Origin: an uncultured bacterium
GTDB lineage: Bacteria > Cyanobacteriota > Vampirovibrionia > Gastranaerophilales > Gastranaerophilaceae
Length of the DNA: 38,258 nucleotides
Assembly: GCA_949284985.1 (NCBI GenBank)
Contig: CASDWY010000026.1
Coordinates: forward strand, 1-38,258
Direction of reading: 5' to 3'
This document shows, one piece after another, positions 17,093 through 24,045 of the stretch. Position 1 is the stretch's first letter, and each line of letters begins with the position of its first letter. Made by a program: the position numbers and the translations under genes. The notes beneath the pieces were generated by a model. That model had not been told where the DNA came from and did not search any database. It saw nothing but the letters and a program-made list of their open reading frames with translations.

Positions 17093-18754
17093 ATGTCAAC
17101 AAAAGAATTTTTTACAAATTCTGAAGAGCTGAAAAAATTAATGTCAGCAGCGCGTGCTACAATTACAGCGCCATTCTTTGGAAACAATGTAGAAGAAGTA
17201 AAATCCGTATCAGAAGCATACAAATTGGCTAAAAATAGCCCTGGTACAATTGAATTAACAGGAATGCCTGTTTATCAACCTGAAAAAATAGGTCTGCCAC
17301 AAGGAGCTAATCAATTATTGTTCAACGATGGTACAGTTGTAGGTCGTTGTGCAGCAGCTAGAAAAATTGTTGGCGAACCCGGTTGCGATTTGGGTTATCT
17401 TCTTCCTATAATTCGTGAAGCTGTTTACGGAACACGTGACAAGCTTATGTATAAAACGGAAGTGGTTGTAGGCTTAGAAGAAGACTTTATGATTAAGGCA
17501 CACCTTATGATTCCGGAAGGTTTTGAAAATATTATGTATTCTTGGATGTTAAACTTCCAGTATATAAACGAAATATATTCTCAAATGTACGCAGAATCAA
17601 GAGAATGGAATGAAGGAGATATTTATGTATTCTCTGATCCTGATTGGTCACACCCTGATTTTCCATACGGTTTGACATTCTTTGATCCTGAACACAATTG
17701 TGCAGCTATTTTGGGTATGAGATATTTTGGAGAACACAAAAAAGGTACATTGACATTGGCTTGGGGCGCAGCTGCTCGTAATGGTTATGCTTCTTGCCAT
17801 GGTGGTATGAAACGTTACAACTTGGATGGTGGAAAATCTTTCCAAGTAGCTGTATTTGGTTTGTCTGGCTCAGGTAAATCAACTATTACTCACGCTAAAC
17901 ACAACAACAAGTATGATATTACCGTTCTTCATGACGATGCATTTATTATTAATGTTCATGATAAATATACAATAGCATTGGAGCCTGCATATTTTGATAA
18001 AACAGCAGATTACCCAATAGGTTGTGATGATAACAAATATATCTTGACACAACAAAACGCTGGGGCTATTCAAACAGCAGATGGAAAAGTTGTTTCAGTT
18101 ACAGAAGATATTAGAAATGGTAATGGTCGTGCTGTTAAGTCCAAATTGTGGTCTCCAAACAGAGTTGATAGAATTAATGAACCTATCAATGCTATTTTCT
18201 GGTTGATGAAGGATCCTACTATTCCTCCTGTATTAAAACTTTCAGGTGCGTCTTTGGGCTCGGCTATGGGTGCAACTCTTGCAACTAAACGTTCTTCTGC
18301 TGAAAGACTTGCGAAAGGTGTAGATCCAAATGCTTTGGTTGTAGAACCTTATGCTAACCCATTTAGAGTTTATCCTCTTGAAATGGATTACACAAGATTT
18401 AAACAACTTATTGAAGATGGCGTTGATTGCTATATCTTGAATACAGGTGAGTTTATGGGAACAAAAGTTCAACCTAAACATACACTTGGTATTATCGAAG
18501 CAATAGTTGAAGGTTCGGCTAATTTCCATAAATGGGAAAACTTCTCTGATATTCAAATTATGGATATTGACGGATTTGATGCATCGTTTAAAAATGCACA
18601 GTACGCTCAACAATTTGTTGCTCGTATGCAAGATAGAATTGATTTCGTTAAGTCAAGAGAAACAGAAAAAGCAGGAATTGATAAGCTTCCTGCTGATGCA
18701 CTTGAAGCTCTTCAAAAAGTTATTAATGAAGCAAAGGTTACTGCTTCTGTGTAA
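17093..18754 (+). CDS. pckA: ATP-dependent phosphoenolpyruvate carboxykinase
   Basis: 553 residues, slightly longer than the ~530-540 usual. Key elements: kinase-1a P-loop GLSGSGKST (256-264), acidic kinase-2-type VLHDDAF (278-284), the substrate-site region GMRYFGEHKKGTLTLAWG (208-225), SPNRVDRINEPINAIFW and the later VDCYILNTGEFMGTKV. It converts oxaloacetate and ATP to PEP, CO2 and ADP, or runs in reverse to fix CO2 in fermenters. The sequence resembles, from memory, the form found in gut Clostridia rather than the E. coli form. Strong AAGGAG site; a large terminator follows. Single-gene transcript, codon use fits high expression. Confidence 0.9.
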   Translation: MSTKEFFTNSEELKKLMSAARATITAPFFGNNVEEVKSVSEAYKLAKNSPGTIELTGMPVYQPEKIGLPQGANQLLFNDGTVVGRCAAARKIVGEPGCDLGYLLPIIREAVYGTRDKLMYKTEVVVGLEEDFMIKAHLMIPEGFENIMYSWMLNFQYINEIYSQMYAESREWNEGDIYVFSDPDWSHPDFPYGLTFFDPEHNCAAILGMRYFGEHKKGTLTLAWGAAARNGYASCHGGMKRYNLDGGKSFQVAVFGLSGSGKSTITHAKHNNKYDITVLHDDAFIINVHDKYTIALEPAYFDKTADYPIGCDDNKYILTQQNAGAIQTADGKVVSVTEDIRNGNGRAVKSKLWSPNRVDRINEPINAIFWLMKDPTIPPVLKLSGASLGSAMGATLATKRSSAERLAKGVDPNALVVEPYANPFRVYPLEMDYTRFKQLIEDGVDCYILNTGEFMGTKVQPKHTLGIIEAIVEGSANFHKWENFSDIQIMDIDGFDASFKNAQYAQQFVARMQDRIDFVKSRETEKAGIDKLPADALEALQKVINEAKVTASV

Positions 18755-18905: not shown

Positions 18906-20972
18906 ATGGCAAGAGTATTGTTTATTACAAATAATAAAGAAAAAGCAGAGTTGGTACAAGATGTGTTGTGCAAGAATGCTTTAGAGGTTGAAGTAGTATT
19001 GGAGGAAGTTATAATTTTTGATAAAATTATGGCTTTTTTCCCGGATTTAATTTTGCTTGATGTTTCTTTTAATACTCAAGATATAACACTTTTGGCTAAA
19101 AAGATTAAAATTCATACTCAGACGGATAATGTTATTTTTTCTTTGTTGGTTCCGCAGGATTGTGATAATCAGGATTTGTTAAAAACAGCTACTTCATATA
19201 TTACTGAGCCGTTAAATGAAAAAATTTTAATTTCTACAATCATGTCAGCTATTAGGATGAAAAATTCTTTGGATGTACTATCGAGGAATAATGCTGATTT
19301 AGCTAAGAGTCTTTATCAACTTGATGTTTTATATAATACAAGTACTCAGTTTGCAGGTTCTTTGGACAGAGAGAAGCTTATAAATATAATGTTAGAGGGT
19401 TTGGAAAAAAGCTTAAGTTTTAATCTCTCATACATTTTATTATTTAATAATGATAATGATATAAAGTTGATAGTGAATTCGCTTCATCCTCTTTCAGAGC
19501 GTTTTGAACAGGCAATAAAGCTTAGAGCAATGATTTCATACAAATCATTGTTTGATAAAAAACAAATGCCTTATGCTATTAATCCGGATATAATTTCTGT
19601 GGAAAAGAGAATTAAGCATCCTTATGTAGAGTATGATTTGCCGGTTCTGAATTTTGATAATATGTTTGCTCCTGTAACGATAGGTGAAAAATTTTTTGGC
19701 GTAATTGAAGTTTTTCGGGAAGAAGAGTTTAAAAGTGAGGATGCAACATGTTTTCAAACTCTTTCAAAGCAAGTTTCAATCCCTTTGGAGACTGCAACTT
19801 TGTATGATGAAATAAAGCAAACCAATATTAAGTTGGAAAATCTGGAGAAGATGAAGTCTGAATTTATATCAATTGTTTCACATGAGCTTCGGACGCCATT
19901 AACAGCTATAAAGAATTCTTTAGGAATATTGAAAGGTGGTGCTGCAGGAGAAACAACTGCTGTTATGGATAAATTTTTGGGGCTTGCGGAGAGAAATGTG
20001 CTGCGCTTAAAGGGAATTATAAATGATCTTTTAGATTTATCAAAAATAGAAGCCGGCAAAATGAAGTATAGTTTTGAAAAAGCTGATATTATGTCGCCGG
20101 TTGAAACAGTTAAAACTACGCTTGAAAATTTGATGAAAGAAAAAAATATAGTTTTTTCGCTTAATTATGATGAAAACTTACCGCAGGTATTTATTGACAC
20201 GATGAGAATAGAGCAGGTTGTAATGAATTTGCTTTCAAATGCAATAAAATTTACTCCAGAGAATGGTGAAATAAAACTTTGTGTATCGAAAATGTCAGGC
20301 AGTCAAATTGATAGAAGTGATGCGGTAGATGATAGGGAGTATATCGTAGTTTTGGTAGAAGATTCAGGAATAGGTATAGAAAAGGAGAATTTGGAAAAAG
20401 TATTTGATAAATTCCAGCAAATAGAAAGTTCTTTGTCAAGAAAAATTGGTGGTACAGGTTTGGGGCTTCCTATTGCAAAGCAGCTTGTTGATGCGCACAA
20501 GGGACTTATATGGGTAGAAAGTGCTATAAATAAAGGGTCAAAATTTTATTTTGCTATTCCTGTACTTTCTGATTTAGAGGCGTTTAAGGCTGGTCTTGAA
20601 AAACAAATTGCTGTTGCAAAGTCAAACTGTTATACATTGGGTGTTATCAAAATATCAGAGCGGATGGATAATAGTACAGTTTTTTTAAACGACATTGTTT
20701 CTGGTTTGATAAATATTGTCAGAAAAGGAGTTAATGTAAAAGAATATATAGTTAATGAAAATAATTTTAAAACTATTTATTATACGGTAATGCAAATGGA
20801 TAGATTTGCACTTAATTTTGTTGGTAAAAAAATAGATGGTTTTGTTAAAACCGAGCCAAGGTATGAAAAATGTGATATATTGTTTTCAACGGTACTTTAT
20901 CCTGATGATGAAGTTACAGTAGATGGATTAATTGAAAAATTAGATAATGATATTATTGAAGTTAAGCTTTAG
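18906..20972 (+). CDS. Histidine kinase with pseudo-receiver, GAF and extra C-terminal domain
   Basis: 688 residues, no membrane helix. Domains: a receiver-like fold (1-118) with Asp52 but lacking the acidic pair (NN at 9-10) and the Lys (Glu101 in ITEPL), so a pseudo-receiver; a GAF domain (about 135-300); HisKA with His326 in IVSHELRTPLTAIKN; HATPase_c with MNLLSNAIKF, VEDSGIGIEKE, KVFDKFQQ and GGTGLGLPIAKQL (ends near 550). The last ~130 residues resemble a degenerate GGDEF fold (NCYTLGVIKIS... CDILFSTVLYPDDEVTVDGLIEKL) with no GGDEF motif. Cognate regulator is probably the receiver gene 9 bases downstream. No ribosome site precedes the ATG, but TAAAAT ends 6 bases before it. Confidence 0.88.
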   Translation: MARVLFITNNKEKAELVQDVLCKNALEVEVVLEEVIIFDKIMAFFPDLILLDVSFNTQDITLLAKKIKIHTQTDNVIFSLLVPQDCDNQDLLKTATSYITEPLNEKILISTIMSAIRMKNSLDVLSRNNADLAKSLYQLDVLYNTSTQFAGSLDREKLINIMLEGLEKSLSFNLSYILLFNNDNDIKLIVNSLHPLSERFEQAIKLRAMISYKSLFDKKQMPYAINPDIISVEKRIKHPYVEYDLPVLNFDNMFAPVTIGEKFFGVIEVFREEEFKSEDATCFQTLSKQVSIPLETATLYDEIKQTNIKLENLEKMKSEFISIVSHELRTPLTAIKNSLGILKGGAAGETTAVMDKFLGLAERNVLRLKGIINDLLDLSKIEAGKMKYSFEKADIMSPVETVKTTLENLMKEKNIVFSLNYDENLPQVFIDTMRIEQVVMNLLSNAIKFTPENGEIKLCVSKMSGSQIDRSDAVDDREYIVVLVEDSGIGIEKENLEKVFDKFQQIESSLSRKIGGTGLGLPIAKQLVDAHKGLIWVESAINKGSKFYFAIPVLSDLEAFKAGLEKQIAVAKSNCYTLGVIKISERMDNSTVFLNDIVSGLINIVRKGVNVKEYIVNENNFKTIYYTVMQMDRFALNFVGKKIDGFVKTEPRYEKCDILFSTVLYPDDEVTVDGLIEKLDNDIIEVKL

Positions 20973-20981
20973 GGGATTATG

Positions 20982-21353
20982 ATGTCGGAAAATAAAACAA
21001 TATTAATAGTTGATGATGAGCAAGATATAGTAGAAACTCTAAAATTTATATTAGAGGCTAATGGTTATAAGTGTTATTGTGCATATAACGGTGAGGATGG
21101 ATTAAATCAAGCTAAAGAAATTAAGCCGGATTTAATTATTTTGGATGTAATGATGCCTAAGATAAATGGTTATAAAATTTCACGTTTATTGAAGTACGAT
21201 AATAAATATAAAGACATACCAATAATTATGGTTACAGCTCGTTCCCAAGAGCAGGACAAGTTGATTGGAGAAGAAACAGGGGTAAATGAATATATATCTA
21301 AACCATTTGAATTGGAAGAAATACTAGATGCTGTGAGAAAATATTTGGATTAA
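20982..21353 (+). CDS. Single-domain response regulator
   Basis: 123 residues, one receiver domain and no output domain. All phosphorylation residues are present: DDE in ILIVDDEQDIV, Asp in LIILDVMMPKINGY, Thr in IIMVTARS and Lys in YISKPFELEE. I choose the second of two adjacent ATGs because AGGGGA (20971-20976) is 5 bases from it but only 2 from the first. It follows the kinase by 9 bases and precedes the PilB-like gene by 2, so it likely passes phosphate-dependent signals between the two by protein contact, like CheY or PilG/PilH. Confidence 0.9.
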   Translation: MSENKTILIVDDEQDIVETLKFILEANGYKCYCAYNGEDGLNQAKEIKPDLIILDVMMPKINGYKISRLLKYDNKYKDIPIIMVTARSQEQDKLIGEETGVNEYISKPFELEEILDAVRKYLD

Positions 21354-21355
21354 TT

Positions 21356-22735
21356 ATGGAATCTTTAAGCAATAAAACGCTGGAAAAACTTAAATATGAT
21401 CTTGTGAGGGATAATATTGTTTCATATGAAACAATAGAAAAAGCACAGGAGCTTGCATCTGCCCAAAATATTAATCTAGGTCAAGTACTTATTAATCTTG
21501 GAGTTATAAAAGAAGATGAGCTTTTAAAGTTTTTGGAATCAAAGCTTCATATTCCTTATGTAAACCTTGATGATTATTCGCTAGATACAAAGTGTTTAGA
21601 ATTGATAAGCTTTAATGACGCAAAAAAATATAAAATTATCCCTCTTTTTAAAATAGAAGATGTTCTTACAGTTGCTATGGCGGATCCTTTAGACTTATTT
21701 GCGATAGAAAAAATTTTAGAAAAAGTGGATTTTGAAATAGAACCTGTAATTTCTTCAGAAAATTCTGTTATGAAAAAAATTGAGGAGTATTATAAGACTG
21801 ACCATACGGTTGGACAAATTTATACTGATGATACGCAACCTAAATTTGATTGGCGAGATGAAATACATAATGAAAATTTATCGGAAGAACATATTCAAAA
21901 AATAATTCGATCAATACTTAAACAAGCTATTCTTGAAAATGTACATGAGCTTTTCTTCGAGCACGGTGTAAATGGGCTAGGTGTTAATTTTAAGAAAAAT
22001 AGTGAAGTAATACAAAAAGGTTTTGTTCCTGATTTGTTGGTTTCTCCTTTTATAATGCGTTTAAAATTTCTTTCCAATTTGGATCCGCAAGTTTCAGAAA
22101 TACCACAACTTGGAAAATTATCTTTTAAAGTTGATGATTTATCTTTAATTGCCAGTGTGTCAGCGTTTCCAATTATTCAAGGAGAAAGAATTGCTATAAA
22201 AATATATAAACCGCCTAAAAAGCTCGATGAGCTTCAGTTGGATAGTTCTAAAAGAGCGTTACTTAATGAAGCTTTTAATGTTCCAGGAATTATACTTGTT
22301 TGTGGTTCGAATTTAAGTGGTAAAACTCATTTTATATATTCGATGTTGTCAGAAATTGGCGATAGTATGAAAAATGTTATGACAATAGAATCTATAACTA
22401 AGTATGATTTGCCAAATGTTAACCAGTGTGAATTAAATGAAAATATTGGGTTCAATTTGGATAAGGCAATGAGATTTATAGAATTTCAACAGCCGGATGT
22501 TATTTATTTTGAAGGTATAAGTACAAAAGAGGGATTAGATTATTTTTCAAGCCTTGTATTTAAAGATAAGATTTTGATAACAGAGTTTATGGCAAATAAT
22601 TTTGATGATTTGCGAAAAAAACTTTCTTATCCGGAGTTTTCTATGTTTAAATCTTTGTTGAGCTGTTTGGTATTTATGCACAGTCAAGAAAGCATAGAGA
22701 TTTTTAATAAAGAAGCTTTAGACAAGTATTTATAA
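21356..22735 (+). CDS. Degenerate PilB/GspE-family ATPase with MshEN-like domain
   Basis: 459 residues against about 560-580 for PilB. Residues ~1-145 match the T2SSE_N/MshEN fold (INLGQVLINLGVIKEDELLKFL, IPLFKIEDVLTVAMADP). The ATPase part aligns with PilB (YKPPKKLDELQL; LPNVNQCELNENIGFNLDKAMRFIEFQQPDVI) and keeps Walker A GSNLSGKT (317-324). Catalytic motifs are altered: the Asp box TIEDPVEY reads TIESITKY, Walker B MVGEIRD reads YFEGIST, the HTGH-type His box is missing (ITEFMANN), and the C-terminal CxxC zinc motif is gone. It may bind ATP without driving a pilus. Two bases after the response regulator stop; probably a signalling or regulatory derivative. Confidence 0.85.
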   Translation: MESLSNKTLEKLKYDLVRDNIVSYETIEKAQELASAQNINLGQVLINLGVIKEDELLKFLESKLHIPYVNLDDYSLDTKCLELISFNDAKKYKIIPLFKIEDVLTVAMADPLDLFAIEKILEKVDFEIEPVISSENSVMKKIEEYYKTDHTVGQIYTDDTQPKFDWRDEIHNENLSEEHIQKIIRSILKQAILENVHELFFEHGVNGLGVNFKKNSEVIQKGFVPDLLVSPFIMRLKFLSNLDPQVSEIPQLGKLSFKVDDLSLIASVSAFPIIQGERIAIKIYKPPKKLDELQLDSSKRALLNEAFNVPGIILVCGSNLSGKTHFIYSMLSEIGDSMKNVMTIESITKYDLPNVNQCELNENIGFNLDKAMRFIEFQQPDVIYFEGISTKEGLDYFSSLVFKDKILITEFMANNFDDLRKKLSYPEFSMFKSLLSCLVFMHSQESIEIFNKEALDKYL

Positions 22736-22746
22736 GGAGTTAAATT

Positions 22747-23007
22747 ATGCCACAACCATTTCAAACCCCAACACAGCAAATAAAAACAAGAGTCTCAGTT
22801 TTAGTCTTTTTAAAAGGAAACGCAGCTCCGCTTGTTTTATATGTTGACAATCCTATAGAACTTTATGAAGAAGTGCTTTCTTATTTAAAATTGCCTGCAA
22901 CTTCAAAGATTGTTGAAAAAGACACACAAGGTCCAATTAAAAGAGTAGCCTTTCAAACAAGTCAAATTTCAGCAGTAGCAATGCAAGAGGAACAATATTT
23001 TCAATAA
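22747..23007 (+). CDS. Small unknown protein in the kinase/PilB-like operon
   Basis: 86 residues, not recognised. It begins 11 bases after the PilB-like gene with an AAGGAG site (22733-22738), so it is the last gene of the operon. The core reads as strand-helix-strand (RVSVLVFLKG, PLVLYVDNPIELYEEVLSYLKL, KRVAFQTSQISAVAMQEE), resembling small beta-sandwich or PilZ-size adaptors only in length and hydrophobic pattern. No signal peptide or membrane helix. Ends two bases before the convergent stop of the XRE gene. Tight linkage suggests a partner of the PilB-like protein. Confidence 0.7.
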   Translation: MPQPFQTPTQQIKTRVSVLVFLKGNAAPLVLYVDNPIELYEEVLSYLKLPATSKIVEKDTQGPIKRVAFQTSQISAVAMQEEQYFQ

Positions 23008-23245: not shown

Positions 23246-23294
23246 ACTTGTCCACAAGTCCGACTTGTGATAAAGTGATAAATAGGTGTTATCA
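23246..23294. promoter_or_regulatory. Palindromic operator region between XRE and pseudopilin genes
   Basis: CACAAGTC-C-GACTTGTG (23253-23269) is a perfect 17-bp palindrome. Including the flank, half-sites ACTTGT/ACAAGT/ACTTGT occur at 23246, 23254 and 23263. Next to it, GTGATAA and GTGATAA occur in tandem (23267 and 23275) and TGATAA/TTATCA form another inverted repeat (23276-23294). Position between divergent genes fits autoregulation and pilin control by the XRE protein. Confidence 0.7.
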
Positions 23295-23307
23295 TAGGAG
23301 ATCATTT

Positions 23308-24045
23308 ATGAAAAGATTGGCTTTTACATTGGCAGAAGTGTTAATAACCTTGACGGTTATAGGCGTTATTGCCGCTATGACCGTGTCGACGCTGGTTTCA
23401 AAATACCAAAAACAAACCTATGTAGTTGGGTTGAAAAGATCATATTCTGAATTGTCAAATGCTATTATAATGATGCCTGTTCGTATGGGATGTCCCGCCG
23501 GTGATTTTGTTTGTGCCGGGTTGTTCAAAAATGATGCGGGGGATGTCAATACCCGTGATGCAATGAACTTGTTCGCAGAGCAAATGAAAGTAGTAAAATC
23601 ATGTAGTGCTGGAAAAAAAGGTTGCGGACCGGATAAATATAGTATTTATATTGGCGGTGATAGTGGTGTTAGCTATGCTTATCCTTATACTCGTTTTGTT
23701 GATTTCCCATCAATATTAACTGCTAGCGGAGTAGCCTATGCCTTTTTTACCGGTCTTTTTTCCGGAGAGGTTCCTAATCTTGGTATTTATGTGGATATAA
23801 ATAACCAAAAAGGACCTAATCGTCAAGGAAGAGATATATTTTTGTTTATTATCGCCCGGCAAGATCATAATGGAATAAAGCAAGGAACCCTAATGCCTAT
23901 GGGATCAGAATTGTATTCAAAGTATCAAGGACAAGGTTCGTATAGAGGAACTTGGAAAAATGGCAATTATCCTTGTTTAAAACAAAAATCAGTTGGTTCA
24001 TATTGTGCTGGTCGCGTCCTCGAAGAAAATGCCATGAATTATTAA
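23308..24045 (+). CDS. Pseudopilin-like protein with class III leader
   Basis: 245 residues from the ATG at 23308, which has TAGGAG 7 bases upstream; in-frame codons further upstream lie in the operator region. Leader MKRLA is followed by FTLAEVLITLTVIGVIAAMT: cleavage before Phe with Glu at +5, as prepilin peptidase requires. A helical stretch (YVVGLKRSYSELSNAI) leads to a large globular domain rich in paired cysteines (GCPAGDFVCAG, CSAGKKGCGPD) and ending SYCAGRVLEENAMNY. A second copy with the same ending lies at 37571-38258. Such proteins form minor-pilin or T2SS-like fibres at the inner membrane; the actual filament is unknown. Confidence 0.87.
   Translation: MKRLAFTLAEVLITLTVIGVIAAMTVSTLVSKYQKQTYVVGLKRSYSELSNAIIMMPVRMGCPAGDFVCAGLFKNDAGDVNTRDAMNLFAEQMKVVKSCSAGKKGCGPDKYSIYIGGDSGVSYAYPYTRFVDFPSILTASGVAYAFFTGLFSGEVPNLGIYVDINNQKGPNRQGRDIFLFIIARQDHNGIKQGTLMPMGSELYSKYQGQGSYRGTWKNGNYPCLKQKSVGSYCAGRVLEENAMNY

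Follow-up and report, generated by a model that had tools for sequence, protein, structure and literature searches.

A PilB-like pseudo-ATPase encoded beside histidine kinase and stand-alone receiver genes in Gastranaerophilales: a possible signalling output apart from the type IV pilus

The Gastranaerophilales are gut-dwelling bacteria of a class of non-photosynthetic relatives of the Cyanobacteria. In a genome of this order, the gene of a protein resembling the pilus motor PilB lies directly behind the genes of a histidine kinase and a receiver, which raises the question of whether the protein drives pili or serves the two-component system. The original prediction, made from the DNA alone, held that a pilus motor had been converted into a signalling or regulatory ATPase controlled by the adjacent receiver. 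To our knowledge, little is known about pseudo-enzymes derived from secretion or pilus motors. The stretch of DNA analysed, hereafter the window, comprises 38,258 nt of a Candidatus Gastranaerophilales genome (G000; contig CASDWY010000026.1 of GCA_949284985.1) and contains the following genes:

18906 to 20972, plus strand: histidine kinase, 688 aa (Pfam HisKA/HATPase)
20979 to 21353, plus strand: stand-alone receiver of the CheY/PhoB type (Pfam Response_reg, 1.9e-29)
21356 to 22735, plus strand: PilB/GspE-type pseudo-ATPase (pseudo-PilB), 459 aa (Pfam MshEN and T2SSE; TIGR02538, 175.7 bits)
22747 to 23007, plus strand: small ORF, 86 aa, judged to be outside the system

The positions and order of these genes agree with the original prediction, as does the absence of pil genes from the kinase-receiver-pseudo-PilB triad; the canonical pilB-pilC pair sits on contig C13. 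The kinase and receiver genes are separated by 6 bases (9 when counted from the second ATG) and the receiver and pseudo-PilB genes by 2 bases; the small ORF starts 11 bases after the pseudo-PilB gene. The window also encodes a very divergent PEP carboxykinase of the ATP type at 17093-18754 (Pfam 56.7 bits, far below the NCBIfam cut-offs) and, downstream of the triad, one prepilin at 23248-24045. The prepilin gene was dropped as a meaningful neighbour because such a gene occurs within 6.5 kb of pseudo-PilB in only 12 of 117 loci.

Pseudo-PilB was present in all 39 sampled relatives, which belong to seven families. In a phylum-wide sample, by our count, 170 of the 173 genomes of the order have an orthologue (E < 1e-90), namely 167 of 170 in the family and 3 of 3 among the other genomes of the order. 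In ten genomes representing other families within the class, and in the remainder of the phylum sample, only matches at the level of canonical PilB were found. Distant matches elsewhere in the phylum (E to 1e-59) were rejected as orthologues, the best of them being canonical PilB proteins encoded in pilB-pilT-pilC settings. The receiver gene is directly upstream of pseudo-PilB in 107 of 111 non-redundant loci, with a median gap of 3 bases, and in 84 of those 107 loci the kinase gene directly precedes that of the receiver. The kinase gene of G219 is inverted, yet all three genes are adjacent. Three genomes have the kinase-receiver pair on a different contig from pseudo-PilB and still keep both parts. 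No other neighbour of pseudo-PilB is conserved in more than 25 of 117 loci. The association is no mere coincidence, and the conserved unit is the kinase, the receiver and pseudo-PilB, three genes in all. Neither pseudo-PilB nor the kinase was found in G178, G301 and G403, though PilB, PilC and pilins are present. This joint lack is weak evidence: with the genes side by side, a single gap in the assembly could account for both absences. All sequences of the order used here are from assembled genomes of uncultured bacteria, and absences rest on draft metagenome assemblies.

The product of the small ORF has no Pfam match. The gene adjoins the triad in the window's genus only; its homologues are single-copy, occur throughout the order and head the DUF177-rpmF-plsX-fabH operon in most of the other genera examined (loci L223-L226, L229 and L230). 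As an order-wide gene located elsewhere in other genera, it was rejected as a fourth component, and the four-gene block of the original prediction is reduced to three. It encodes a small conserved protein, unassigned to a family, that moved behind pseudo-PilB in the window's genus.

Pseudo-PilB has the predicted fold of a pilus motor. Its AF2 model (pLDDT 84.8) matches Geobacter PilB 5zfr with Z 23.1 (AF2/VIA), which bears out the relationship to PilB assumed in the original prediction; the domain architecture is also that of PilB/GspE, with a truncated C-terminal part. On TIGR02538, the PilB model, its 175.7 bits compare with a cut-off of 675.65 and with the 558 bits reached by the canonical PilB that this genome also encodes. 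The catalytic residues were mapped by aligning 39 homologues on the numbering of Geobacter metallireducens PilB, the structures of which define the residue roles (Mg-binding E357, catalytic E395, the arginine fingers and others; PMC5424180). The motif positions in the window are:

22304 to 22327, plus strand: Walker A, G-x4-GKT, residues 317-324 (GSNLSGKT in the window protein)
22382 to 22402, plus strand: position of the ASP box, residues 343-349 (TIESITK), with an invariant Lys in place of the Mg-binding E357 of PilB
22499 to 22516, plus strand: position of Walker B and the catalytic Glu, residues 382-387 (VIYFEG), from the alignment

The GK[ST] of Walker A is kept in 35 of the 39 homologues. 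E357 of the ASP box is replaced by Lys in all 39 (K349 in the window protein); an invariant glutamate, E345, persists in the same box. The catalytic E395 is replaced in 30 of 39 (G387 in the window protein), with an invariant glutamate (E386) one residue ahead of its position. The arginine finger R271 has become S, I, V or L across the homologues (S267 in the window protein), and R286 has become K in 37 of 39 (K282). Of the HIS-box residues, H413 is K in 37 of 39 (K405) and H420 is L, M or another residue (M412). The zinc tetra-cysteine C-terminus is missing, the protein ending before that region. The altered Asp box, Walker B, His box and zinc cysteines that were noted from the window, alongside a retained MshEN-like N-domain and Walker A, are real changes fixed across the order. 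G026 and the genomes of family f6, four in all, have lost Walker A but still keep the gene and, in family f6, the triad. In the latter family (loci L073, L075 and L076) the Walker A loop is erased whereas the MshEN portion is retained along with the E-S/A-x-x-K box; the erasure is evidently a second step of degeneration. Since the catalytic set is replaced and the gene persists in four genomes even without Walker A, pseudo-PilB can hardly function as a PilB-type motor. It may still bind ATP, yet should not hydrolyse it in the manner of PilB, although the invariant glutamate one residue before the catalytic position leaves room for some unusual hydrolysis.

The window genome possesses a canonical pilB-pilC pair, two PilT-like genes and a Tad-type ATPase locus. 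With a separate canonical PilB encoded next to PilC, pseudo-PilB was rejected as the sole motor of the genome, a possibility that the original prediction had acknowledged. Most triad-bearing genomes likewise carry PilB, PilC and pilins. The prepilin N-terminal signal was matched 41 times in the window genome and up to 64 times in relatives, a pseudopilin repertoire that is unusually large, with genes often scattered singly.

A clade of five Gastranaerophilales genomes has lost the type IV pilus motors. In three of them, G219, G338 and G369 (97-99% complete), no PilB/PilT, no PF00482 (PilC/GspF-type) protein and no prepilin signal was found, and all three still carry the kinase-receiver-pseudo-PilB triad. 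They form the clade (support 0.998) with the genomes of loci L164 and L136, in which there was no other PilB-family member above the cut-off; one of these two genomes has two weak prepilin matches and the other none. PilB is present, by contrast, in both of the nearest sister genomes. In G219, G338 and G369, pseudo-PilB thus occurs without the PilC and pilins that accompany a PilB-type protein. The three pseudo-PilB proteins are 77-89% identical, with dN of 0.09-0.17 and saturated dS. As this protein identity has persisted despite saturated synonymous sites, purifying selection, to judge from the substitutions, has kept pseudo-PilB after pilus loss in the clade. Its retention in a clade without motor genes and its absence from three piliated genomes argue that pseudo-PilB does not act as a motor and is not bound to a role in piliation. 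This case is strong but not final, because it derives from one loss event (n=1) and draft genomes.

The two proteins encoded beside pseudo-PilB keep the conserved residues of a two-component pair. The kinase consists of a receiver-like N-terminal domain, a GAF-like domain, HisKA, HATPase_c and a degenerate GGDEF-fold tail (Pfam), and in the alignment its phospho-acceptor H326, N445 of the N box and the G boxes are invariant. No transmembrane segment was predicted in it; the maximal 19-residue hydropathy, 1.78 at residue 35, lies in a predicted beta-alpha domain. The kinase is thus a predicted soluble protein (AF2 model, pLDDT 80.5). Its tail is located as follows:

20571 to 20969, plus strand: degenerate GGDEF-fold C-terminal domain of the kinase, without a GGDEF signature (hhalign)

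When compared with the genome's own GGDEF domains by hhalign, the tail matched with a probability of 95% (E 2.9e-8, 125 columns), as opposed to 0.7% for a receiver control, but the probability falls to 54% with a shallower alignment. Many relatives have shorter kinases of about 550 aa, and many of these are without the GGDEF-fold tail. In the receiver, D12, D13, D56, T86 and K108 are invariant in 29 sequences, such that the whole phosphorylation pocket, with its Asp, Thr and Lys residues, is kept. The receiver has no output domain.

The N-terminal part of pseudo-PilB might suggest a further input, since MshEN domains of other systems bind c-di-GMP. Two regions are distinguished:

21386 to 21544, plus strand: MshEN c-di-GMP motif region, residues 11-63 (NF053729, 28.9 bits, cut-off 38)
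21548 to 21808, plus strand: C-terminal half of MshEN, residues 65-151 (Pfam MshEN, 62.8 bits)

The model of pseudo-PilB superimposes on the c-di-GMP-bound N-domain of MshE (5htl) with Z 19.1 and an rmsd of 1.9 over 138 residues. The MshEN motif comprises two 24-residue repeats, RLGxx..G..LxxxLxxQ, of 53 residues in all, and mutation of Gly11 in MshE abolished c-di-GMP binding (PMC5013675). In pseudo-PilB, motif I is broken: K11-L12-K13 replaces R-L-G, and E/Q31 and A34 replace the final Leu and Gln. Motif II is nearly intact (N40-L41-G42 ... L60 ... K63). On NF053729, the NCBI model of the c-di-GMP motif, four members (the window protein, two orthologues from pilus-less genomes and one from family f6) score 20-29 bits, below the cut-off of 38, whereas the window genome's canonical PilB scores 48.2. 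With motif I broken, at a glycine essential in MshE among other positions, and the scores below the cut-off, c-di-GMP binding by pseudo-PilB in the known mode is unlikely, and this part of the original prediction is weakened.

The gene set, its conservation throughout the order, the replaced catalytic residues, the intact sites of kinase and receiver, the separate PilB and the retention of the triad in pilus-less genomes form the observed side of the system. Our preferred reading, which we regard as reasonably probable, is a dedicated phosphosignalling module in which the receiver acts through the PilB-derived pseudo-ATPase on a partner other than, or not only, the type IV pilus. The soluble kinase would phosphorylate the stand-alone receiver, which, having no output domain, would dock on the pseudo-PilB encoded by the neighbouring gene. 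Pseudo-PilB would bind ATP without PilB-like hydrolysis, perhaps as a nucleotide-dependent ring, and its conformation or nucleotide state would be passed to a downstream partner. These steps are reasonable in view of two precedents, the binding of PilB by the receiver EmvR and signalling by Myxococcus xanthus PilB, both discussed below. The adjacency of separate receiver and ATPase genes is no proof of interaction, and the receiver could serve another target. Of the original prediction, the conversion of a motor into a signalling ATPase has gained support from the separate PilB, the replaced hydrolytic residues and the pilus-less retention; control of pseudo-PilB by the adjacent receiver is plausible by analogy with the precedents. 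A more far-reaching view, for which the chances appear evenly balanced, is that early in the Gastranaerophilales a duplicated PilB was turned into an ATP-sensing two-component output independent of pili and is now a near-universal regulator of another process.

Other explanations were weighed against this module. Pseudo-PilB might regulate the pilus by joining or blocking the hexamer of canonical PilB or its docking to PilC, with the receiver switching it on or off. The fold shared with PilB, the co-occurrence of PilB, PilC and pilins in most triad genomes and the many prepilins of the window genome are in line with such a role, as are the known regulation of PilB by single-domain receivers (PMC11973254) and by paralogues, with two motors and an inhibitor reported in Acinetobacter (PMC8213720). 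Arguing against pilus regulation are the purifying selection on pseudo-PilB in a clade without motor genes, the three piliated genomes without it, the replacement of the inter-subunit residues R271, R286, H413 and H420, and the lack of pil neighbours, including the scarcity of nearby prepilin genes. Pilus regulation is therefore considered unlikely, albeit the strongest of the competing explanations. Much less can be said for a divergent yet active motor of another secretion or filament system. Walker A in 35 of 39 homologues and the invariant E386 and E345 would fit an active enzyme, but the Mg-coordinating Glu is Lys throughout, the arginine finger R271 is lost, four genomes keep the gene with Walker A erased, and G219, G338 and G369 keep it without any PF00482 protein; we consider such a motor very improbable.

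An effector that senses c-di-GMP through the MshEN domain, with the receiver as a second input, would accord with the clear MshEN fold, the nearly intact motif II, the GGDEF-like fold of the kinase tail and the seven to eight GGDEF proteins of the window genome. The loss of Arg, Gly and Gln from motif I and the NF053729 scores speak against it and render it doubtful, more so than pilus regulation. That the genes are neighbours without a functional tie could be argued from the three genomes in which pseudo-PilB and the kinase-receiver pair are on different contigs. The linkage across seven families in the absence of any other conserved neighbour, and the inversion in G219 that moved the kinase but left the three genes adjacent, make mere neighbourhood hardly credible.

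The dedicated phosphosignalling module can be placed among known systems. Pseudo-PilB shares with PilB/GspE (TIGR02538, PF00437) the MshEN, N2 and RecA-like domains, the fold and Walker A, but it is without the catalytic Glu, the ASP-box Glu, R271, both HIS-box His residues and the zinc cysteines. It has 459 aa instead of about 570-680, is encoded away from pilus genes and is kept without pili. With the MshE-type c-di-GMP receptor (PMC5013675) it has the N-terminal MshEN fold in common, whereas half of the 53-residue motif is broken. In Xanthomonas oryzae, the single-domain receiver EmvR binds PilB, whose ATPase activity then drops by roughly 40% (PMC11973254). Both systems pair a receiver without an output domain with a PilB-family protein; EmvR, however, is an orphan receiver acting on a genuine motor, unlike the dedicated kinase-receiver-pseudo-motor locus described here, where canonical PilB is separate. 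PilB of M. xanthus needs neither hydrolysis nor pili to regulate exopolysaccharide (PMC5544727), and hydrolysis- and pilus-independent signalling by a PilB-family protein is what is proposed here. M. xanthus employs one bifunctional PilB, in contrast to a duplicate that is unfit as a normal motor and has its own two-component system. A search of the open-access literature turned up no described system with the kinase-receiver-pseudo-PilB set, nor any paper linking such a set to Gastranaerophilales; the original prediction likewise knew of no system with its exact gene set. If the proposal is correct, a whole bacterial order employs a disabled pilus motor as a two-component output, the pilus-less clade separates the signalling role from pilus assembly without genetics, and researchers gain a concrete regulator to examine in these gut bacteria. 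The Gastranaerophilales locus would then be a natural, fully specialised counterpart to PilB signalling in Myxococcus and Xanthomonas.
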